A stretch of DNA of 64,000 nt from positions 62,001 to 126,000 of the forward strand of contig NZ_AMZB01000124.1 of NCBI RefSeq assembly GCF_000313755.1, written 5' to 3'. A program made the translations under genes and the position numbers. Positions 3,700-19,862 of this stretch are shown piece by piece. The notes beneath the pieces are model-generated. The model worked only from the letters and a program-made list of their open reading frames with translations. It did no database searches and was not told where the DNA came from. Origin of the DNA: Pseudomonas nitroreducens TX1 (GTDB lineage Bacteria; Pseudomonadota; Gammaproteobacteria; Pseudomonadales; Pseudomonadaceae). The first letter of the stretch is position 1; each line of letters begins with the position of its first letter.

Positions 3700-4983
3700 T
3701 TACAGGTGTAGACCGCCGGCCATCAAACTGACGGCGCGCAGGTCGCGGTACCAGCGCTCGGCCGGGTGTTCCTGGGTGAAACCATGGCCGCCGAGCAGTT
3801 GCACCGCGTCGGTGCCGATCTTCATCGCCTTCTCGGCGCAGAGCAGCTTCGCCAGGTAGGCCTCGCGGTGAAACGCCAGCCCGCGTTCAGCCAGCGCGCA
3901 GGCGCGCCAGACCATCAGGCGCATGGCGTCCAGCTCGACGGCGATGTCCGCGACCATGAAGGCCACGCCCTGGCGATGGCTGATCGGCTCCCCGAAGGCC
4001 TCGCGCTCGTTGCAGTAGGTGATCACGTAATCGAGTGCTGACTGCCCCGTGCCGACGGCCAGCGCACACCAGGCCAGCACGGTGTGATCGAGGAAGGCCT
4101 GGTAGTCGAAGCGCTCCGCCGCCAGCCGCTGTTCGGCCGGCACCTTCACGCTCTTGAAGCGCACCCGCGCCGTGCCAGTGGCTTTCAGGCCCATGGCCGG
4201 CTCGGCGCGCACCTCGACGCCTTTGGCGCGGGTGTCGACCAGGAACAGCGCCGGGCCGTCGCCGGCATCCGCCGCGACAATCAACTTCTGCGCATCGACG
4301 CCGCGCACGACCAGGCACTTCTCGCCGGACAGCGTGTACGTCGAACCACGCTTGCGCGCCTTGGTGGACAAGCGTTGCGGATCGGCCAGCAATTGCGGCT
4401 CGGTCACCGCGATGGCAATCAGCGGCGCCGCCTCTTCACCGACAAAGGCCGGCAGCCAGCGTGCCTGTTGCTCCGGCGAGGCCCAGCGGCGAATGCAATT
4501 GGCCGCCGACAGCGGCACCAGCAGCGCGGCGGCCAGACTCAGGTCGCCTCGGGCGAGGGATTCGGCAATCAGGGCATTGGTCACCACGGTGCGCTCGCCG
4601 GCCATGCCGCCGTGCACTTCGCTGACGCCGTAATGGGTCAGGCCCAGCTCCTGCGCCTGGGCCAGCAGTTCCAGGCTGAGGTTGGCCTTGGCGTCGGCCT
4701 CATGGGCAGCCGGGCGCAATACTTCGGCGGCGAAGCCTTCGAGCATCTCCACCAGCATCTGCTGCTCATCGGACAGGGACAGGTCGAACAACCCGTCCGG
4801 GTCAGCCTTGCGCGGGGTCTTGGGTTGCTTGGCGGCGCGCTCGCTGGCCAGCCGGAAGCCGGTGCGGCTGCCGCTGTAGAGCAGGCGTTCGAAGGGCTTG
4901 CGCAGCTTGAGTCGATCCGGCCAGTCGGCCTGGGCGACACGATTCAACACGGCCAGGGCACGGCCCTGCACGTCGGTGGTCAT
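3700..4983 (-). CDS. Acyl-CoA dehydrogenase (second of a neighbouring pair)
   Basis: This 427-aa flavoprotein of the acyl-CoA dehydrogenase family has an N-terminal extension of about 70 residues before the first family helix (DLSLSDEQQMLVEMLEGF). The usual TEPxxGSD motif is weakened to AIAVTEPQLLADPQ, so substrate contacts may differ from the neighbouring gene product. The C-terminal domain is well kept: YCNEREAFGEPISHRQGVAF, QLLGGHGFTQEHPAERWYRD, and a final LMAGGLHL. The last gene in this strand run before the hldE terminator, it is followed by the other dehydrogenase about 150 bases on; a joint role as partners or as sequential enzymes is only inference. GGAGCGAG upstream supports the ATG at 4983. 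Confidence 0.9.
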   Translation of the reverse strand: MTTDVQGRALAVLNRVAQADWPDRLKLRKPFERLLYSGSRTGFRLASERAAKQPKTPRKADPDGLFDLSLSDEQQMLVEMLEGFAAEVLRPAAHEADAKANLSLELLAQAQELGLTHYGVSEVHGGMAGERTVVTNALIAESLARGDLSLAAALLVPLSAANCIRRWASPEQQARWLPAFVGEEAAPLIAIAVTEPQLLADPQRLSTKARKRGSTYTLSGEKCLVVRGVDAQKLIVAADAGDGPALFLVDTRAKGVEVRAEPAMGLKATGTARVRFKSVKVPAEQRLAAERFDYQAFLDHTVLAWCALAVGTGQSALDYVITYCNEREAFGEPISHRQGVAFMVADIAVELDAMRLMVWRACALAERGLAFHREAYLAKLLCAEKAMKIGTDAVQLLGGHGFTQEHPAERWYRDLRAVSLMAGGLHL

Positions 4984-5045
4984 GGCATCTCGCTCCGCGG
5001 AGGGTGGATGCCGCGATCATGCGCTGCAAAATGCCGCAGGGACCA

Positions 5046-5081
5046 TGACCGCTTTGCCGCTGGTCACTGGCAGAGCGGTCA
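5046..5081. promoter_or_regulatory. Inverted repeat upstream of the acyl-CoA dehydrogenase gene
   Basis: TGACCGCT at 5046-5053 is matched perfectly by AGCGGTCA at 5074-5081. Inside it a second TGCC/GGCA arm gives an 8+4-bp hairpin with one mismatch and a 10-base loop. It lies 62-98 bases before the start of the minus-strand dehydrogenase, a position suited to an operator or a 5' leader structure. No binding protein can be named. Confidence 0.4.
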
Positions 5082-5093
5082 GTGCATCGCCAC

Positions 5094-8218: not shown

Positions 8219-9115
8219 TCAGACCTGAAACACCGGCACGCGGTGGCACCAGCGGTCCTTGTACTCGCGGTCGGCGCGGCCGAAGGAATAGCGCAGGGGC
8301 TTGCCCAGCGCCTCGGCTTCGGCCCAGGCCTCCTGCGTATTGACGAAGCTGAGCACGCTGCCGGGGCTGAAGTCGCGATTTTCCGGCGCCACGCCGCCAT
8401 TGATGTATTCGACGCTGATCCACTTCGGCGCCTCGACCCGGTAGAGAATCTGGATCGCCACCGGCTCGTCGTCCAGGCGCACCAGCGAGCCGCGCATGAA
8501 TTCGCGCATCAGGCCGAATACTTCGGCCAGCCGCGCCTTGCCGGGCACCTCGAATTCCCAGCGGCGCTGGAACAGGTCGGCATAGATGCTCGCCTGCTCC
8601 TCCGGGCTCAACTCGCTCATGGGTTGCAGCACGCCGCCCGCCTCTTCCAGCAGGCGCTGTTCGCGGCGCTGGTTGTAGCGAAATTTCTTCGAGAAGTCGG
8701 CCGGGGCGCGGTTCATCGCCAGTTGCTCGGGCTGCGCGCGGGCATCGCTGACCTGTTCGCGATTGAGTTCGGAGAGGTAGCGCACCTGATGGCGCAGTTC
8801 GATGCGCGTGCCTTCGGCAATCGGCAGGATGATCTCCGCGTTGCCCAGGTCGAACAGGGCCTTCTTGCCCTCGCGCTTGAGCACGTCCTTGGACAAGGCC
8901 AGGTTGCGTCCCCAGGTCGGCACAGCGGCGCGCAGTTCATCGCCCTCGAACCAACCCAGGTAGCGCACCGGAATGCCGGCCAGATGGGCGAGGCGCTCGA
9001 CCACCTCCGGGTGGGTGGCGACGCTGCCGCCGAAGCGCTGCCAGGCGGCCGCATAGTCAGTTGCCGTGATGGGCGTCCAGCCGCGTTCGCGGAAGACTCG
9101 CAGACGGTTCAGCAT
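8219..9115 (-). CDS. Mig-14 family protein
   Basis: This 298-aa protein belongs to the Mig-14 family, which has an acyltransferase (GNAT/FemAB-like) type fold; Salmonella mig-14 contributes to resistance to antimicrobial peptides. Recognisable stretches include FSKKFRYNQRREQRLLEEAGG and a C-terminal YINGGVAPENRDFSPGSVL followed by SFGRADREYKDRW. No signal peptide or clear membrane helix is seen. The P. aeruginosa counterpart (PA5003 position) lies next to dnpA, and the pair is kept together here although moved. It starts 13 bases after the msbA stop, so it is likely cotranscribed with msbA. A role in modifying LPS or the envelope is inference from context and family. Confidence 0.8.
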   Translation of the reverse strand: MLNRLRVFRERGWTPITATDYAAAWQRFGGSVATHPEVVERLAHLAGIPVRYLGWFEGDELRAAVPTWGRNLALSKDVLKREGKKALFDLGNAEIILPIAEGTRIELRHQVRYLSELNREQVSDARAQPEQLAMNRAPADFSKKFRYNQRREQRLLEEAGGVLQPMSELSPEEQASIYADLFQRRWEFEVPGKARLAEVFGLMREFMRGSLVRLDDEPVAIQILYRVEAPKWISVEYINGGVAPENRDFSPGSVLSFVNTQEAWAEAEALGKPLRYSFGRADREYKDRWCHRVPVFQV

Positions 9116-9128
9116 GTCGGGTGCCGCG

Positions 9129-10958
9129 TCATACCGGCTGCTCGGCGGTCAGCTCGTTGCCATCGGCCGGATCATCGGCGAACTGGCGGGCATGCAGGCG
9201 TGCGTAGTAGCCATTCTGGGCAATCAGCTGGTCATGGGTGCCACGCTCGACGATGTGGCCCTGGTCCATCACCAGGATCAGGTCCGCCGCCTCGATGGTG
9301 CTCAGGCGGTGGGCGATGACCAGCGTGGTGCGACCTTGCATGACCTTCTCCAGCGCGGCCTGGATGTGCCGCTCGGACTCGGTGTCCAGTGCCGAAGTGG
9401 CCTCGTCGAGGATCAGCACCGGCGCGTCCTTGAGCAGCGCGCGGGCGATCGCCAGGCGCTGGCGCTGGCCGCCGGAAAGCATCACCCCGTTCTCGCCGAC
9501 TTCGGTGTCGAAGCCTTCGGGCAGGCGGTCGATGAACTCGCGGGCGAACGCGTCCTCGGCGGCCTTCTCCACCGCTTCGCGCGGTTTGCTGGCGAGGTCA
9601 CCATAGGCGATGTTGTTGAGCACGCTGTCGTTGAACAGATTGACCTGTTGGGTCACCAGCGCGATATGCCGGCGCAGGTTGCTCAGCGTGTAGTCTTCGA
9701 CGTCCGTACCGTCGAGCAGGATCTGCCCGTCGCTGTGGTCGTAGAAGCGCGGAATCAGGTTGGCCAGGGTCGACTTGCCGCTGCCGGAGCGGCCGACCAG
9801 CGCCACCATCTGGCCCGGTTCGACGCTGAAGTTCAGGTCGTTCAAAACCTTCTTCTCGGTGCCCGGGTAGGTGAAGCTGAGGTTCTTCACTTCCAGGCGA
9901 CCCTGTACGCGGTCACGCTCGACGGTGCCGTTGTCCACCTCGGGCTGCTCGTCGAGTTGCTCGAAGATGCTCTCCGCACCGGCCACGCCCTTCTGGATGG
10001 TCGAGCTGACTTCGGACAGCTGGCGGATCGGCTTGGGCAGCAGGCCGGCCATGGAGATATAGGCCACCAGGTCACCGACGGTGGCATCGCCGCGCAGCAG
10101 CAGCACGAGGTACAGCAGCACGGCCATGGCGCTGTAGATCACCAGCTGCAGCATCGGCGTGTAGATCGCCGAGGTCTTGTTCATGCGCAGGTTCTTGCTG
10201 GTGTTCTCATCGGTCACGTTCTGGAAGCGTTGGCGCTCATAAGGCTCGCCGCCAAAGCTGCGGACCACCCGATAGCCCTGGATGGTCTCGGAGGACACGT
10301 GTGTCACGTCGCCCATGGCCACCTGGATCTTCTTGCTCTGCTTGCGGAACTTGCGGCTGGCGCTGGTCACCATCAGGGCGATGACCGGCAGGATCGCCAG
10401 CATCACCAGGGTCAGTTTCCAGTTCATGTAGAGCAGCGAGAGGAACAGGAAGACCACGGTCATGCCTTCACGGATCACCACCTTGATGGCATCGGTAGCC
10501 GCGCCGGTGACCATGGTCACGTTGAAGGTGATGCGCGAGATCAGGTGCCCGGAGTTGTTGCTGTCGAAGTAGCGATTGGGCAGGGTCAGCAGATTGTTGA
10601 ACAGCGCGATGCGCAGGTCCTGCACCAGCCCCAGGGACACCTTGGCGATGTAGTAGTTGCCGAGGAAGGAACCGACGCCCTGCCAGACAGCGATCAGTAC
10701 CACCAGCAGCGGTACCGCATAGAGCAACGAGAGGTCGCGCAACCAGGCCCAAGGCGCATTGGGGAACAGCTTGGCATCCGGATGGGCCAGGCCATCGACG
10801 AAATACTTGAGGATGCCCGCCAGCATCGGCTGGGTCGCGGCGAAGATCAGGAAACCGACGATGCTGAGCAGGAACATCCCGATGTACGGGCGCACATAGG
10901 ACAGCAGTCGGAAGTAGATCTTCAGGCTCGAAGGTGCCTGGGGTTCTTTACCGGACAT
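9129..10958 (-). CDS. msbA: Lipid A / LPS core flippase, ABC transporter
   Basis: MsbA flips core-lipid A across the inner membrane using ATP. This 609-aa half-transporter has six membrane segments in its first about 320 residues and a nucleotide-binding domain after that. The domain contains Walker A GRSGSGKST, the Q-loop TQQVNLF, the signature LSGGQRQRLAIARALL, Walker B LILDEATSALD and the switch His in IAHRLST. Length and order are standard. It is divergent from a kinase-like gene, with a TATAAT box about 30 bases before its start. Downstream are the Mig-14 gene and, after the REP cluster, dnpA and hldE, all envelope genes on the same strand. Confidence 0.95.
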   Translation of the reverse strand: MSGKEPQAPSSLKIYFRLLSYVRPYIGMFLLSIVGFLIFAATQPMLAGILKYFVDGLAHPDAKLFPNAPWAWLRDLSLLYAVPLLVVLIAVWQGVGSFLGNYYIAKVSLGLVQDLRIALFNNLLTLPNRYFDSNNSGHLISRITFNVTMVTGAATDAIKVVIREGMTVVFLFLSLLYMNWKLTLVMLAILPVIALMVTSASRKFRKQSKKIQVAMGDVTHVSSETIQGYRVVRSFGGEPYERQRFQNVTDENTSKNLRMNKTSAIYTPMLQLVIYSAMAVLLYLVLLLRGDATVGDLVAYISMAGLLPKPIRQLSEVSSTIQKGVAGAESIFEQLDEQPEVDNGTVERDRVQGRLEVKNLSFTYPGTEKKVLNDLNFSVEPGQMVALVGRSGSGKSTLANLIPRFYDHSDGQILLDGTDVEDYTLSNLRRHIALVTQQVNLFNDSVLNNIAYGDLASKPREAVEKAAEDAFAREFIDRLPEGFDTEVGENGVMLSGGQRQRLAIARALLKDAPVLILDEATSALDTESERHIQAALEKVMQGRTTLVIAHRLSTIEAADLILVMDQGHIVERGTHDQLIAQNGYYARLHARQFADDPADGNELTAEQPV

Positions 10959-13827: not shown

Positions 13828-14784
13828 TCAGATCCCCAACGCCAGACGGCAACGTTCGAGCACTCCGGGCTGCGGCCGTTCGCGCAGCGGCTCGGCCATG
13901 GCCTGGACGATCCGTGCGCCAATCTGGCTGAAGCCGAAACCCTCAACCGCCAGCGCTCGTCCAGCCTCAGCGATACGGGCGGCGTGCTGCGGGTCGTTCC
14001 GCAGCCATTGCAGCTTGCTGCGCAACTGGGCAACGTCGCGGTAAAGCACCACGTTGTGCATATCCTGCAAGCCGAGCGCACGGTTCTCCGCCTCGCCCTG
14101 GTCATAGGCGAGCAAGACGCAACCGCAGGCCATCGCCTCGAAATTCTTGATCATGTACTCACCCATGCCGACATCCGCGCTGACGAAGAAGCGAATGCGG
14201 TTGAGGGTGTTCAGGTAGTCCTCGCCTGAATTGGTCTTGGTGACCAGCAGGTTTTCCACCTTGCCCAGCTCGTCCAGCAGCGCCTTGCGGCCACTGTAGG
14301 CAACGCTGCCGGTGCTGCCGACGAACGCCAGTTCGATATCGCGCTCGCGCCCCAGATCGTGGAGCAGGTCCTGGTCGTAGCCCTTGGGCACAAAGACCGC
14401 ATCGAAGCCTTCCTGGCGCAGCCGCTCGCTGACCATGAAGCCGGAGCTGATCACGCGCGCCCAGGGCAGGCGACGGTAGTGCGCACTGAACTTCCCGGTG
14501 TACTTGCAGGGGATGTAGTTCTGGTAGGCATCGTGTTCGAGGATGACAAGGTTGGGCACGCTGCGGATGAAGGCGGCCTGGCGCATCTCCTTCTTGAAAC
14601 GCAGGAAGAACAGGATGCGGTCGTATTTCGACACGTCCACCTGTTCACGGAAATAGCGGCGCAGGTTGGCCTGCTCGCCACTGCTCAGCCAGCGCAGATC
14701 GCACTCGCAATGTTCGGCGATGCCGTCATACAGGCGGTCGAGGATGGCGCGTTGTTCTTTCTGGACCAGGAACAGGACCTTCAT
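13828..14784 (-). CDS. ssg: Ssg-like cell-surface polysaccharide glycosyltransferase
   Basis: This 318-aa protein has a C-terminal GT-B half with GEYMIKNFEAMACGCVLLAY, the Glu-containing sugar-nucleotide site of GT4-like enzymes, and FVGSTGSVAYSGRK in the linker. The N-terminal half (MKVLFLVQKEQRAILDRLYDGI) forms the acceptor domain. Size and place match Ssg (PA5001) of P. aeruginosa and the surface-spreading gene of other pseudomonads, which affect LPS and motility. Donor and acceptor are unknown to me. Its ATG overlaps the stop of the DUF115 gene (ATGA), so it is translated with the ulosonic-acid cassette described below. Confidence 0.82.
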   Translation of the reverse strand: MKVLFLVQKEQRAILDRLYDGIAEHCECDLRWLSSGEQANLRRYFREQVDVSKYDRILFFLRFKKEMRQAAFIRSVPNLVILEHDAYQNYIPCKYTGKFSAHYRRLPWARVISSGFMVSERLRQEGFDAVFVPKGYDQDLLHDLGRERDIELAFVGSTGSVAYSGRKALLDELGKVENLLVTKTNSGEDYLNTLNRIRFFVSADVGMGEYMIKNFEAMACGCVLLAYDQGEAENRALGLQDMHNVVLYRDVAQLRSKLQWLRNDPQHAARIAEAGRALAVEGFGFSQIGARIVQAMAEPLRERPQPGVLERCRLALGI

Positions 14785-15683
14785 ACCGGCTTGCCCACCT
14801 CAGGACGCAATGGTTGCGACGTTGCCAAGGCCACCAGTTCATGGACCTGAGCAAGGTTGACCTTCGGGATCAACTCGCCGGGAAGGCGGCTCTCGCGGGA
14901 AAGATTGAACACCTGGAACCCGGAGTCGATAACCTGCCGGGCCAACAGGCTGAAATTTGGCAGGATGTGCCCGGCGAAATCATCGTCCAGGCGGCTTTTT
15001 ACCTGGACACCGGCAGGATCGTAAAACTGTCCGAGCGACGAATTCATATCTACGCCCACGAGGAACACCCTGTCGAAACCCAGGTAATACGCCAACTGAA
15101 TGGCGACATAGGCAATGGTACGAGCGGAGAAGTAACCCCGACCGAAGTTCCGGCTGAAACCCAAACGGTTGGCGGCCTGACTTAGCAAGGACCAGTTCAT
15201 GACGAAATCCGGGTCTTTCCGGGCCGACCAGGCGAACGCGCGGTCTGTGCGCTGGGGCACATCCGCCCAACGATTGACACGCTCCATCAGCAGAAGGTTC
15301 TCCGCCTGCAGCGCCTGCGGCTCCTTTGCGTACAACCGCTTCATGGCCTCCAGCCCCAGCGCCGCCCATTGCGACCGGTGAATGCCACTGGCAACGGCAG
15401 TGCTTTTCTTTTCGGCCACACCGGCATCGTCGCAAAGGTAGAAGAACGGACGCACGCCCTCCTGCTCGAAGCGGGCGATGGAGCCGTTCATCGCGATCAT
15501 CGGTACATGGGCGTAGTCCTTCAGGGGAAACTCAGCCACCGATGGCCCCGACGCGATGATGAAGACTGCCCCGCTGCGACTGTTGCGCAGCAGCTGCCAG
15601 GACGGTAGACGACGCGCCTGCCCGGAAGGCAGGTGCAAGGTACGCTCGCCGGAAGGTCCGGCCTCCAGAGTCACAACCGTCAT
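14781..15683 (-). CDS. DUF115 / MptE-like domain protein, possible ulosonic-acid transferase
   Basis: This 300-aa cytoplasmic protein has a DUF115-type domain: FIIASGPSVAEFPL at about 41-54, IAMNGS at 63-68, FYLCDD about 80-86 and, after an ARTIAYVAIQLAYYLGF helix, RVFLVGVDMNSS. Relatives include the Maf flagellin-glycosylation proteins and the MptE pterin kinase, and enterobacterial KdoIII transferase WaaZ may be related. In P. aeruginosa no such gene sits here. It is flanked and coupled by overlaps to the HAD phosphatase (ATGA) and to ssg (ATGA). A role as the transferase that uses the sugar made by its three upstream partners is inference from this context and from Maf proteins moving CMP-nonulosonic acids. 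Confidence 0.7.
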   Translation of the reverse strand: MTVVTLEAGPSGERTLHLPSGQARRLPSWQLLRNSRSGAVFIIASGPSVAEFPLKDYAHVPMIAMNGSIARFEQEGVRPFFYLCDDAGVAEKKSTAVASGIHRSQWAALGLEAMKRLYAKEPQALQAENLLLMERVNRWADVPQRTDRAFAWSARKDPDFVMNWSLLSQAANRLGFSRNFGRGYFSARTIAYVAIQLAYYLGFDRVFLVGVDMNSSLGQFYDPAGVQVKSRLDDDFAGHILPNFSLLARQVIDSGFQVFNLSRESRLPGELIPKVNLAQVHELVALATSQPLRPEVGKPV

Positions 15684-16351
15684 GGGGTTTCTTCTATCCT
15701 GAGCAACGCCTGGATATCACGGCGCACTGCGACGGACTTGTCGGCGAAGAAGGCGTTCGCGTCGTGGAATTCACTCCAGCCGTCAAGGAAGACGAAATCC
15801 AGTCCAGCCCCATGGGCGCACTGGTAATCGAAGCGGCTGTCTCCCAGGAACAGGGCGGGGCCGGCGATATTGCCGCTAGCCAGTTCGCGGGCAAGGATAC
15901 GGTCCTTCGGCGTCGGGCTACCGAAGATGCCGCCATCGAACAGGCGGTCCAGGCCGCGAGCGGAAAACACGTCGCGCAACTCGGCCTCATCACCGCCCGA
16001 AACGATCAGCCAACGGCTATCGGGCAACTGCGCTCGCAACGCCTGCAACCCCGGCGCCACGGCACAGTCCAGCAATCCTTGGCGAACGGCGGCAGCGTAT
16101 TGCTCGAGGAGACCGGGGAGCAATGCCTGAACGTCCTTCGCCCTCACGATGTCCTGCAGGAAATACTCGAACTTGCGATAGCGGGATATGCCGCCGTTGG
16201 CCTGGTGATAATCGACGAAGGCCTGCGCAGCGCTGTCCCCGAACGGCAGTGCAACTTCGTGGAAAGCCCGGGTCTTCACTGCGTTGGAGTCCAACACGAC
16301 GCCATCGCAATCGAACACCAGGCAGCGGTAGTCGGCGAGATTGCGCAGCAT
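15680..16351 (-). CDS. HAD-superfamily phosphatase of the sugar cassette
   Basis: This 223-aa cytoplasmic HAD hydrolase has all four motifs: DCDGVVLDS (D14 and D16), the Ser of LIVSGGDEAELRDVF, the Lys of PTPKDRIL, and LFLGDSRFDYQCA. A helical cap of the phosphoglycolate-phosphatase type lies between motifs I and II, so it is not a simple KdsC, which lacks a cap. It could remove the phosphate from a ulosonate-phosphate or from a sugar aldehyde precursor. Its ATG at 16351 sits inside the TGATG overlap with the cytidylyltransferase; a GTG three bases earlier is less likely. Specificity is unknown. Confidence 0.82.
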   Translation of the reverse strand: MLRNLADYRCLVFDCDGVVLDSNAVKTRAFHEVALPFGDSAAQAFVDYHQANGGISRYRKFEYFLQDIVRAKDVQALLPGLLEQYAAAVRQGLLDCAVAPGLQALRAQLPDSRWLIVSGGDEAELRDVFSARGLDRLFDGGIFGSPTPKDRILARELASGNIAGPALFLGDSRFDYQCAHGAGLDFVFLDGWSEFHDANAFFADKSVAVRRDIQALLRIEETP

Positions 16352-17094
16352 CACAGTCCCCGCGCCCGAATGGCCGCCTCGGCCGTCTCGATGTCTTCAG
16401 GGTTGTCTACGGCAATGGAGTCCTGCGACAGTTCAAGCATCCGCACCTCCCAACCCAGCTCCAGGAAACGCAGTATCTCGATGTCCTCCAGGCTCTCCAG
16501 CGGTGTTTTGCTCGTGCAGGCGGCAAAGGCCTCGAGCGCGGCACGAGGGAAGGCGTACAGACAGACCTGGCGCCAGGCCTTGATGAACTCGTCCGCCTTG
16601 GTGCCGGGAATAGTCGCGCGAGACATGTAGAGCAGGCGGCCATCGGGACGCATGACCACCTTGGGCGTGCTCGTACTACGGAACTGCAGTTCCTGCTCGA
16701 TGGCACAGAATCCGTTGAGCACCTCGCCCGGCCATTGGGCGCTGGCCTCGATCATGCGCCGCAAGTCGTCCGGGTTGAAGACTGGCTCGTCACCCTGCAC
16801 GTTGATGAACACATCCGCATTGAGCTGCTGCGCGCATTCGGCGAGACGGTCGGTACCGGTAAGGCAGTCCCCGGAGGTCATCAGCACGGCAATGGAGTGC
16901 GCCTCGCATACCTGGCGAATCCGCTCATCGTCGGTCGCGACGTAGATTCGTTCAGCCGGACAAGCCTTCAGGCACTGCCGGTAGGTGCGCAGGATCATCG
17001 GAACGCCGTTCAGCTCCACCAGCGGCTTGCCCGGCAAGCGGCTGGACTGGTAGCGAGCGGGAATGATCACGGCGTAATCGAGCTGAGCGGACAT
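16351..17094 (-). CDS. KdsB-like CMP-sugar (3-deoxy-ulosonate) cytidylyltransferase paralogue
   Basis: The 247-aa product belongs to the CMP-Kdo / acylneuraminate cytidylyltransferase family, which activates 3-deoxy-ulosonic acids with CTP. Visible motifs are IPARYQSSRLPGKPL (11-25), VATDDERI (52-59), TGTDRLAE (79-86) and VQGDEP (99-104). In housekeeping KdsB the segment before the SGTDR motif carries a DHxSGTDR His; here it is GDCLTGTDR, so Cys77 takes the His position, hinting at a different acid. It lies within an LPS-core operon, 7 bases after an aldolase. I chose the ATG at 17094; an ATG at 17112 overlapping the aldolase is possible but poorly preceded. Confidence 0.82.
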   Translation of the reverse strand: MSAQLDYAVIIPARYQSSRLPGKPLVELNGVPMILRTYRQCLKACPAERIYVATDDERIRQVCEAHSIAVLMTSGDCLTGTDRLAECAQQLNADVFINVQGDEPVFNPDDLRRMIEASAQWPGEVLNGFCAIEQELQFRSTSTPKVVMRPDGRLLYMSRATIPGTKADEFIKAWRQVCLYAFPRAALEAFAACTSKTPLESLEDIEILRFLELGWEVRMLELSQDSIAVDNPEDIETAEAAIRARGL

Positions 17095-17101
17095 AGATGA
17101 C

Positions 17102-18700
17102 TCAAAGGGCATAGATGGAAGAACAGGGAACCTGATAGCGGGTCGGTGTCACCGCCAGCAATTCGGGCACTGCCTGCTGAGCCTGATAAGCCTCCAGCAC
17201 GTCGTTGACCTCAACATTGCGCGGATCCTCGCCGGGATAGCCGTCGAAACCCGCCAGCAGAACCCGCCGGGCCTTGCCGCTGGCCGCGATTGCCAGCGCA
17301 TAGGCCGCCACCAGCGACGTCGGCAATGTACAGTGCCGGGCATGGAAACCAAAGCCCTGCCTGTCGATGGACAAACCAAAGTCCAGAAGCGCTTTGCCCT
17401 TCAAGGAATTCAGCACATCCTCAGGCAACATGCTCGCCGGCGTGATCAGCGGCTGCGGCAGTTGCACGTGCTCGGCGCCATCGGCCATCAGGCGTAACGG
17501 ATGGCAGGCCGCGCGCAGATGGATCAGCTCAGGAGAGATATCGGTCTGTGTATTGAGTGCCAGCACCACGGGGTTGGCCTTGCGGATGTAATGCTCGATG
17601 GCATCACGATGCCTGGCCACGCCGGCACCGCTGCCGAGCAGCAGCACCTCCCGGTCGGCCAGCCACTCCTGCGGAGCCCACTCGCCCCGAGGAGAGCCGT
17701 GGTAGAAGTGCCGCGATGCCTCGAGAGTGTCCGGGTTGTACTTTTTACCGCCGCTGGTGCGCAGCGCCTGGATCGCGACTAGCAGATCCGAGTCGCTGTA
17801 ACGCGAGTCAGCCAGCATTTCCTGGACGTAGGTGGGGTGAATGCCATGCATTCCCGCCAGGTAGTAATAAGGATTGGTGCCCCAGCCGTAACGCTGCTGC
17901 ATCGGCTGGAAGCGCCTCGACACCAGCTGCAGAAGCGCCGAGAGATTGCGCTTGCCATGCTGCATGGCGAGGTATTCGATGCGCGCGTTGCCCGGACCGC
18001 GCCCCATGCCAAGCACAGTGCCGTCGACCCAGGTCGCGCCCGCCTCGATGGCTTCGAGCGTGTTGGCGTGGGCCAGTGCGCGATTATCATGCGCATGGAT
18101 TCCCAGCGGGCCGTCCCATTCGCGGCGCAGCAGGGCGACGATCGCGCGCACATCGGCGGGCGAAAGGCTGCCCATGCTGTCGGCGAAATACAGCACGTCC
18201 AGTCCGAACTGCTGGGCTGATGCAGCCAATTGCAGGATGGTTTCGTCAGACTGTTCGGCGATCTGCATCAGGTTGATGCCGACCCGGTAGCCCTGCTGTT
18301 TCAACCAGCGGCAGGCTGGCAATACCGCCTGGAACTCGTGGGCATGACTGGCGATGCGCACCAGGTCGATCGGGGACTCCTGCGCGCAAGCAAACAGGAG
18401 CGCCGCAGCGGCAAGCGGCCCTTCGGCATGCTGGACCAGCTCACTGGCATTGACCATCACGCCGTAGCAGACGCCCGGAACCAGCGGCAAGCTGGCGAGA
18501 AAGGCATCGCTGCTGTAGGCGTATCCGCCGCGAAAACCGTGCCGGGGAAAACCGCGCAGACCCAACTCGACATAATCGATACCCGCACTGGCCACAGCCT
18601 GCAGGTACTCGCGAACCAGGTCCGCGTCGAAGTCCCAGTTGTTGTAGTAACCGCCGTCTCGCAATGTGCAATCCAGCAAGAAGACTTTCGAATCGCGCAC
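17102..18700 (-). CDS. HMGL/DmpG-type aldolase with a C-terminal DUF115-like domain
   Basis: The first about 330 of 532 residues form a pyruvate-aldolase TIM barrel of the HMGL-like family. Key parts are LDCTLRDGGYY at 9-19 (Arg14 and metal-ligand Asp15), FADSMG at 172-177 and the metal-ligand pair His202/His204 in IHAHDNRALAH, then GMGRGPGN. Such enzymes join pyruvate to an aldehyde to give a 4-hydroxy-2-oxo acid, which is the core of every 3-deoxy-2-ulosonic acid. Residues from about 349 form a separate Rossmann-like domain (VLLLGSGAG, VVLALN, ARRVLLAGFDGY) similar in layout to the DUF115 protein three genes downstream. The GTG at 18700 is chosen because GGAGGG lies 7 bases before it; a TTG further upstream would overlap wapH. 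Confidence 0.8.
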   Translation of the reverse strand: MRDSKVFLLDCTLRDGGYYNNWDFDADLVREYLQAVASAGIDYVELGLRGFPRHGFRGGYAYSSDAFLASLPLVPGVCYGVMVNASELVQHAEGPLAAAALLFACAQESPIDLVRIASHAHEFQAVLPACRWLKQQGYRVGINLMQIAEQSDETILQLAASAQQFGLDVLYFADSMGSLSPADVRAIVALLRREWDGPLGIHAHDNRALAHANTLEAIEAGATWVDGTVLGMGRGPGNARIEYLAMQHGKRNLSALLQLVSRRFQPMQQRYGWGTNPYYYLAGMHGIHPTYVQEMLADSRYSDSDLLVAIQALRTSGGKKYNPDTLEASRHFYHGSPRGEWAPQEWLADREVLLLGSGAGVARHRDAIEHYIRKANPVVLALNTQTDISPELIHLRAACHPLRLMADGAEHVQLPQPLITPASMLPEDVLNSLKGKALLDFGLSIDRQGFGFHARHCTLPTSLVAAYALAIAASGKARRVLLAGFDGYPGEDPRNVEVNDVLEAYQAQQAVPELLAVTPTRYQVPCSSIYAL

Positions 18701-18731: not shown

Positions 18732-19862
18732 TCAGCGCTCGGCAACGAGCGCCTTCATCAGCGGCAAGCTCCAGAACTCCCGACGCACGGCGGCGTCGGA
18801 GAAGCGCGTCTGCAGGCGTTGCTCCATCTGTTGCGCACAAGCCTCGCGCTGCCCACGATCGAGCGCCGCCATATGTCCCAGGCCTTCGGCCAGGGCTTTC
18901 TCGTCACGCAGCGGGAACAGGATGCCGACGCCTTCGACCACTTCGCTGGCGCCGCCACCCGCACTGGCGATCACCGGCACGCCCGCGGCCATCGCCTCCA
19001 GCAGGACCATGCCGAACGGCTCGTGGTCGGAGCTCAGGGCAAACACGTCGAACGCCTTGAAGTAGCGCTTGGCATCGGGAACCTGGCCGAGGAACAGCAC
19101 GCGTTCGGCGATGCCCAGTTCGCGGGCCAGATCCTTGAGATCGTCTTCCAGGCGGCCCTTGCCGAGGATCGCCAGCAGGCTGTTGTGCGGCAGGCGCGGC
19201 AGTGCCTGGGCGAAGCCGCGCAGCAGGGTGGCCTGGTCCTTGTCCGGATGCAGGCGGCCGACGTTGCCGACCACCCAGGCGTTGTCCGCCAGGCCCAGGT
19301 GCTGGCGCGCGGGATAGCGGTCGACCTGCTGCGCCTGCAGCGCATCGACGTCGACCCGGTTGTACAAGGTCTCGATGCGCTCCTGCGGCCAGGCAGGCAG
19401 GCAGGCGCGGATTTCGTCGCGCACCGCGTTCGAGACGCCCAGCAGGCTCAGGCGCTCGGCGAAGATACGCGCGAACAACTTGCGCCCCAGGCGCTGGAAA
19501 TCACCGAAACCGTGGTGCACGCCGATGATCGGCAGACGGGTGCCGAGCATCGCGATCCAGGTCGGCTTGAAGCGGTGCGCAATGCAGAAGCGGAAGTCCC
19601 GGGAGCGCGCGATTTCGCGTAGATCACGGATCGCCTTGAGCTTCAGCCCGCGGATGTCCCGCGAGCTGTAGTCGAGGAAGAGCACCTCGTCGCTGGCGCA
19701 GCCGGAGGCCACTTCCGGGTCGGGGGCGCCGGTGAGGAACACCGTGGTGACCCGGTAGCCGGTGCCGGCGAACAGACTGGCATATTGACGGGCGCAATCC
19801 AGGAAGGGCCCGTCATAGCCATGGCAGAACTGCAGGACGCGCGGTTCAGCCGAGCGAGTCAT
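18732..19862 (-). CDS. wapH: GT4 family core glycosyltransferase
   Basis: This 376-aa GT-B enzyme has the second-domain marks of GT4: VGNVGRLHPDKDQATLLRGF, LLAILGKGRLEDDL and the EX7E segment EPFGMVLLEAMAAGVPV. It acts at the cytoplasmic face on growing LPS core. Location between the carbamoyltransferase gene and (in P. aeruginosa) the Mig-14 gene matches WapH (PA5004), an outer-core hexose transferase; here its downstream neighbour is the aldolase cassette instead. The ATG at 19862 lies 17 bases inside the wapO 3' end. The linkage made cannot be read from sequence. Confidence 0.85.
   Translation of the reverse strand: MTRSAEPRVLQFCHGYDGPFLDCARQYASLFAGTGYRVTTVFLTGAPDPEVASGCASDEVLFLDYSSRDIRGLKLKAIRDLREIARSRDFRFCIAHRFKPTWIAMLGTRLPIIGVHHGFGDFQRLGRKLFARIFAERLSLLGVSNAVRDEIRACLPAWPQERIETLYNRVDVDALQAQQVDRYPARQHLGLADNAWVVGNVGRLHPDKDQATLLRGFAQALPRLPHNSLLAILGKGRLEDDLKDLARELGIAERVLFLGQVPDAKRYFKAFDVFALSSDHEPFGMVLLEAMAAGVPVIASAGGGASEVVEGVGILFPLRDEKALAEGLGHMAALDRGQREACAQQMEQRLQTRFSDAAVRREFWSLPLMKALVAER

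Follow-up and report, generated by a model that had tools for sequence, protein, structure and literature searches.

In Pseudomonas nitroreducens TX1, a four-gene cassette within the lipopolysaccharide (LPS) core locus probably makes and attaches a 3-deoxy-2-ulosonic acid, activated with cytidine monophosphate (CMP), that is other than, or additional to, 3-deoxy-D-manno-oct-2-ulosonic acid (Kdo). The window analysed is a stretch of 64,000 nucleotides (contig NZ_AMZB01000124.1, positions 62,001 to 126,000) from a genome of 6.69 Mb in 138 contigs. The four open reading frames (ORFs) lie at window positions 14781-18700 on the minus strand and are intact, with no internal stops. They share 4-bp overlaps (DUF115/HAD and HAD/KdsB2, with a third between ssg and DUF115), while the coupling of KdsB2 to the aldolase amounts to 11 bp. 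An earlier sequence-only reading had described four consecutive and tightly coupled genes here, and that observation is confirmed:

17102..18700, minus strand: aldolase, a DRE-TIM/HMGL pyruvate-aldolase-type barrel with a C-terminal, probably DUF115/MptE-like domain (532 amino acids from the GTG at 18700)
16351..17112, minus strand: KdsB-like cytidylyltransferase (KdsB2) with a K-Q-C-F-I sugar pocket (PF02348, NF009905, pocket residues)
15680..16354, minus strand: HAD phosphatase, predicted to dephosphorylate an ulosonate or an ulosonate precursor (PF00702, PF13419, HAD motifs)
14781..15683, minus strand: WaaZ-like (DUF115) protein, predicted CMP-ulosonate transferase (sub-cut-off PF01973 and TIGR04437)

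In the pathway that we propose, the aldolase would add a pyruvate enolate to an aldose, probably a phosphorylated one drawn from central metabolism since the cassette holds no acceptor-making gene, and the HAD protein would take off the phosphate. KdsB2 would then use CTP to form the CMP-ulosonate, from which the WaaZ-like protein would transfer the ulosonate to the LPS core, possibly at position 6 of the outer-core glucose, the one that carries a third Kdo (KdoIII) in P. syringae pv. phaseolicola. Pyruvate as donor, the order of the reactions, the identity of the product and the acceptor site are all points that we infer.

The cytidylyltransferase matches PF02348 over the cut-off (E = 8.8e-40). 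Among the subfamily models it passes the cut-offs of NF009905 (278.1 bits, cut-off 255) and NF003952, and it falls below those of NF003950 (203.3 vs 234) and of the equivalogs TIGR00466 (142.9 vs 155.2) and NF003948 (159.8 vs 281). Its nearest solved relative is 1gq9 (E = 2.8e-41), named a Kdo cytidylyltransferase and presumably KpsU, which reads R, H, G, Y and Q at five pocket positions. We aligned 59 aldolase-linked KdsBs (that of the window and those of 58 loci with a KdsB-like ORF above 90 bits within 3 kb on either strand) with 30 canonical KdsBs, namely those of the same genome and of E. coli and 28 from gammaproteobacterial genomes. Residues R10, K19, R78, Q98, D100 and D235 of the E. 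coli enzyme serve CTP and metal binding, and KdsB2 keeps all of them (R20, K29, R89, Q106, D108 and D236); in the linked set R10, R15, K19, R78, D100 and D235 are present in 59/59 and Q98 in 58/59. Five positions in the C-terminal sugar-binding domain, R164, H181, G183, Y187 and Q211 of the Kdo enzyme, switch together in the linked proteins, and KdsB2 reads K, Q, C, F and I there. The exact K-Q-C-F-I pocket was found in 49 of the 59 linked sequences (six more have one change) and in none of the 30 canonical ones. Conversely, exact R-H-G-Y-Q occurs in 23 of the 30 canonical KdsBs, the others being four with one change and three incomplete rows, and in none of the 59. A quick tree parted the two sets with two label changes, some of the canonical rows being long or incomplete. 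Since the five pocket positions are switched while the CTP and metal residues are kept, we read the KdsB2-type pocket as a change of sugar substrate, and the product of the cassette is probably not Kdo. PMC12058783 places Arg157, His185, Glu214 and Gln215 among the active-site residues of a modelled KdsB, which by our own mapping correspond to E. coli R157, H181, E210 and Q211; in the Aquifex enzyme, residues 100-210 form the Kdo-binding domain, according to PMC3149649. A third pocket type, perhaps for another sugar, was seen in KdsB-like synthetases situated 2-3 kb from the aldolase (SAHFH in locus L051, AAHFY in L083 and L085).

The aldolase matches PF00682 over the Pfam cut-off (E = 2.8e-28). 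Its ORF opens with a TTG at 18745, but the GTG at 18700 is the likely start because a GGAGG-like site precedes it, in agreement with the end coordinate first given for the cassette. The protein has two domains, a barrel extending to about residue 345 and a C-terminal domain (window 17102-17668), and it aligns end to end with eight full-length relatives. The C-terminal domain is probably DUF115-like, with moderate confidence, since its hhalign probability was 3 against an alignment of WaaZ alone and rose to 89 and 92 only after other DUF115-type proteins had been added. The aldolase may thus be fused to a transferase-type fold; the predicted-fold comparison of this protein covers the barrel. 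The scores against the DmpG models are below cut-off (126.6 vs 229 bits, and 105.3 vs 286 bits for the equivalog TIGR03217). In the alignment to DmpG, the metal site (D and HxH) and the Arg of TLRDG are retained as R29, D30, H217 and H219, invariant across 48 sequences. No KdsA or NeuB profile was among the Pfam and NCBIfam matches listed for the four cassette proteins (for the aldolase, the best 25 of 27 NCBIfam families), and we rejected a synthase of the KdsA/NeuB type, dependent on phosphoenolpyruvate (PEP), as a member of the cassette on this ground and because the kdsA of the genome lies on another contig.

The HAD protein matches PF00702 (E = 2.6e-9) and PF13419, both over cut-off, so that the HMGL-type, KdsB-like and HAD families named in the sequence-only reading all stood, PF00682, PF02348 and PF00702 each being over cut-off. 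It carries the motifs DCDG, SGG, SPTPK and GD...D. Across 65 HAD sequences from the 89 loci described below, the two motif D residues are kept in 64/65 and 65/65, the K in 65/65, and the GD in 65/65 and 64/65. Its seven NCBIfam matches are all to other HAD models, each below cut-off, in a library whose KdsC content is unverified.

When each species was represented by one genome and the aldolase was the sole search criterion, at least 583 relatives were found; the best 80, together with nine loci from whole genomes, make up a set of 89 loci. Of these, 84 encode a CMP-sugar synthetase on the strand of the aldolase and no more than 4 kb from it (59 KdsB-type, 25 NeuA-type), a count that includes weak rows for L084 and L076 and that used search profiles built partly from these same loci, and a HAD gene lies within the same distance and on the same strand in 69. 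With flanks matched at 1.5 kb, a synthetase was found at 78/89 aldolase loci vs 0/14 other HMGL-type loci from the same searches, and a Pfam check on 30 of 54 unlabelled neighbouring ORFs gave 18 matches to CTP_transf_3. By record title, the carriers include Gammaproteobacteria, Alphaproteobacteria, SAR11, Prochlorococcus, a Spirochaetes metagenome-assembled genome (MAG), Omnitrophota, Bacteroidota and Gram-positives. The aldolase-synthetase-HAD triad is therefore a widespread module and not a local oddity, and we infer that the cassette is mobile. On co-occurrence elsewhere the earlier proposal holds for the aldolase with the synthetase and the HAD gene, while the four-gene form is rarer. Among the matches listed in a search of open-licence literature, subscription papers being outside it, we found no description of the cassette or the module. 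In two SAR11-type loci (L077 and L078) the aldolase stands without a CMP-sugar synthetase or HAD gene in range on that strand. Four other loci have an extra ORF right after the aldolase (L032:8384-9148, L033:7868-8629, L038:11654-12391 and L047:11603-12352). That of L038 is an HpcH/HpaI aldolase, and from position and size we read the four HpcH/HpaI matches among the 30 scanned neighbours as these four ORFs.

The last protein of the cassette had been called DUF115; its PF01973 score lies just under the gathering score (E = 9.4e-8, 32.5 bits vs 34.6), and by homology it is more precisely a WaaZ homologue of the KdoIII-transferase family. It matches two models of WaaZ KdoIII transferases (E = 1.5e-29 for TIGR04437 and 7.2e-25), both under the equivalog cut-off, and is 26% identical to WaaZ of E. 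coli K-12 over 251 amino acids (E = 1e-24). Its predicted fold resembles Maf and the CMP-sialyltransferases Cst-I/II. Six of the seven aldolase-linked WaaZ proteins, from at least two genera and including those of L036 and L039, fall in one clade with an SH-like approximate likelihood ratio (SH-aLRT) support of 99. The homology, the predicted fold and the clade together support the transfer step that had been suggested for the DUF115 protein. A role as a pterin enzyme (MptE) is disfavoured, as WaaZ homology and the operon context point to a transferase. Within 10 kb, a WaaZ/DUF115-type gene occurs in 10 of the 89 aldolase loci, a count that includes L035, L063, L064 and L066, whose DUF115-like genes we rejected as WaaZ because they have no NCBIfam WaaZ match and reach PF01973 only below threshold. 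The DUF115-type gene of L108 has a weak WaaZ match (22.7 bits). This locus, from the Gram-positive Bacillus sp. ISL-41, has three DUF115-family genes near its triad (4309-5091, 8244-9032 and 9056-9949).

The cassette occupies a slot between two glycosyltransferase genes. The names wapH, ssg, wapR, msbA, mig-14 and dnpA used for this locus are those we presume to apply:

18732..19862, minus strand: wapH-like glycosyltransferase of family GT4, bounding the variable slot on its upstream side (PF00534; slot edge in congeners)
13828..14784, minus strand: ssg-like glycosyltransferase, bounding the slot on its downstream side (PF13524; slot edge in most inspected congeners)

Among 25 genomes of the genus, wapH was found in 17, that of the window included, and we inspected the region after it in the 16 others. 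The four-gene cassette stands at the same place in two relatives (G014 and G021, aldolase identities of 96% and 86%). In four genomes (G022, G007, G015 and G006) the slot holds a WaaZ-like gene and, after it, a gene of the hexapeptide-acetyltransferase type, and in G016 a WaaZ-like gene with a short acetyltransferase ORF, in all five cases without the aldolase. It holds little or nothing in G023, G001, G003, G005 and G010, mig-14 and dnpA in G011 and G017 (presumably the PAO1 order), and another arrangement in G018 and G013. The aldolase-synthetase-HAD set is found elsewhere in the genome in G019 and G005. Between G022 and the window, wapH is 99% identical and WaaZ only 44%, and G022 has no such aldolase. 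The slot thus appears to be a site at which genes for core modification are switched. The acetyltransferase-like gene that follows a WaaZ-like gene at L118:8697-9254 (matching PF00132), with counterparts in L120, L121 and L122, is a second core-modification variant. The G+C content at third codon positions is 0.74-0.79 in the four cassette genes, 0.77-0.83 in ssg, wapR and waaL and 0.82-0.92 in the other neighbours measured, which is suggestive only as a sign of horizontal origin. A search of a phage collection gave no match at E = 1e-20.

An alternative is that the cassette offers another route to Kdo itself, joining pyruvate and arabinose(-5-phosphate) into Kdo(-8-phosphate) and so supplying more CMP-Kdo, from which WaaZ would add a third Kdo. 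The E. coli WaaZ is, by family name, a KdoIII transferase, a WaaZ-like gene sits in the same slot in the five aldolase-free congeners, and alpha-KdoIII is present in the core of P. syringae pv. phaseolicola, as stated in PMC8005017. We nevertheless consider this route unlikely. The genome already has its own kdsA and also a kdsB, distinct from the cassette gene, whose pocket reads RHGYQ; the pocket of KdsB2 is switched at all five positions, two of which match (by our mapping) active-site positions given in PMC12058783; and six of the seven linked WaaZ proteins form a clade of their own. The module also occurs in genomes without an over-cut-off KdsA or KdsD. A KdsA over cut-off turned up in 11 of the 16 aldolase-bearing genomes that we searched; the five without one are Rossellomorea (L046), two Prochlorococcus (L073 and L087), Streptomyces (L113) and a Bacillus MAG (L114), and no KdsD over cut-off was found in any of these five. 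Strong NeuB matches are present in L073, L087 and L113, the last having no synthetase beside its aldolase. The NeuB hits of L046 (32 bits) and L114 (38 bits), both weak though above the Pfam cut-off of 22.1, each fall at the place of a sub-cut-off KdsA hit, and we take both to be a 3-deoxy-D-arabino-heptulosonate 7-phosphate (DAHP) synthase. Genomes assembled from single cells or metagenomes can be incomplete, so Rossellomorea is the cleanest case. It carries the triad, with a KQCFI pocket in the linked synthetase and no over-cut-off KdsD to make arabinose-5-phosphate. Bacillus sp. ISL-41, by contrast, has both KdsA and KdsD. The complete alternative route to a Kdo-like core sugar that had been proposed keeps the support of linkage and WaaZ homology, with a product that is probably not Kdo.

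Several findings weigh against a cassette dedicated to a new core ulosonate. The WaaZ-like protein scores 103.1 bits against TIGR04437, for which the cut-off is 200 and E. coli WaaZ itself reaches 479.1. The seventh linked WaaZ (L104) lies outside the clade, and in G427, one of the four linked Pseudomonadaceae genomes, the aldolase has one in-frame TGA. The column of DmpG His21, a catalytic residue, holds Tyr33 in the aldolase. Four of the 59 linked KdsBs lack a KQCFI-type pocket (AAHFY twice, SAHFH and FHSFL), and five of the 89 loci have no same-strand synthetase in range (L057, L077, L078, L086 and L113). The stretch of L057 breaks off within the aldolase, and in L086 the opposite strand carries a KdsB-like gene. 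The weak NeuB hit of L046 is still over the Pfam cut-off of 22.1. Lastly, among 198 Pseudomonadaceae genomes, WaaZ is present in 40 and the aldolase in 16, the two meeting in 4 where chance alone would give 3.2; in most cases, then, WaaZ functions in the absence of the cassette, and 36 of the 40 WaaZ-bearing genomes have no aldolase. Association at the genome level is therefore not above chance in this family, and it is physical linkage and the clade that speak for the pairing.

These distributions would also suit a triad whose CMP-ulosonate is used elsewhere, in O-antigen or capsule, next to a WaaZ that independently adds ordinary Kdo, the adjacency being one of operon convenience. The 36 genomes just mentioned favour it. 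So does the low share of aldolase loci with a WaaZ/DUF115-type gene within 10 kb (10 of 89), and two plasmid loci that we inspected are polysaccharide loci in which no WaaZ is annotated. We hold it to be slightly less likely again than a route to Kdo, since the two genes adjoin in all four Pseudomonadaceae genomes that have both, their WaaZ proteins share one clade with L036 and L039, and 4-bp overlaps tie the cassette of the window into the core locus. Despite its DmpG-like barrel, it is very improbable that the aldolase acts in catabolism on 4-hydroxy-2-oxoacids or is a Claisen-type synthase with no connection to CTP chemistry. The flank-matched linkage to synthetases speaks against this, as do the scores far under the DmpG cut-offs and the probable fusion of the barrel to a DUF115-like domain.

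Many bacterial surfaces owe their character to the CMP-sugars Kdo and the nonulosonic acids, whose 3-deoxy-ulosonate backbones are known to be built by PEP-dependent synthases. We see about an even chance that the module, beyond its predicted role here, is a third route to CMP-ulosonic acids beside those of KdsA and NeuB: a DRE-TIM aldolase fused to a DUF115-like domain and a dedicated KQCFI clade would make a 3-deoxy-ulosonic acid to which no genes have been assigned, in Proteobacteria, SAR11, Prochlorococcus and a Gram-positive without recognisable Kdo machinery, and in P. nitroreducens it would be paired with a specialised WaaZ that decorates the LPS core. If so, CMP-ulosonates would have a third entry point, a pyruvate-aldolase route served by its own cytidylyltransferase, and genes now called only 'aldolase catalytic domain-containing protein' would gain a function. 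Annotated Kdo cytidylyltransferases beside the aldolase, including those of Gram-positives and SAR11, would then probably not be makers of CMP-Kdo. The five-residue pocket signature allows KdsB-like proteins to be sorted.

The cassette resembles the Kdo pathway (KdsD-KdsA-KdsC-KdsB) with WaaZ in its KdsB-type CTP activation, its HAD-superfamily phosphatase and its WaaZ-family transferase. It differs in that the carbon-carbon bond would be formed by a DRE-TIM aldolase, presumably with pyruvate as donor, and not by KdsA, which uses PEP; in addition, the sugar pocket of its KdsB is changed and the matches of its HAD protein hold no KdsC model, with the reservation on the library given above. With the sialic and nonulosonic acid pathways (NeuB, NeuA, Cst/Maf) it shares the logic of a CMP-ulosonate and a predicted transferase fold like Cst-I/II and Maf, and a NeuA-like synthetase was scored at 25 of the 89 aldolase loci, whereas the window cassette has no NeuB-type synthase among its Pfam matches and no amino-sugar supply gene. 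Unlike DmpG, its aldolase has a Tyr at the position of His21 and an extra C-terminal domain, and it lies next to KdsB-like and glycosyltransferase genes instead of a dehydrogenase gene. BVU_2661 of Bacteroides vulgatus (PDB 3dxi), a putative aldolase solved for its N-terminal domain only, has a title that gives no function.

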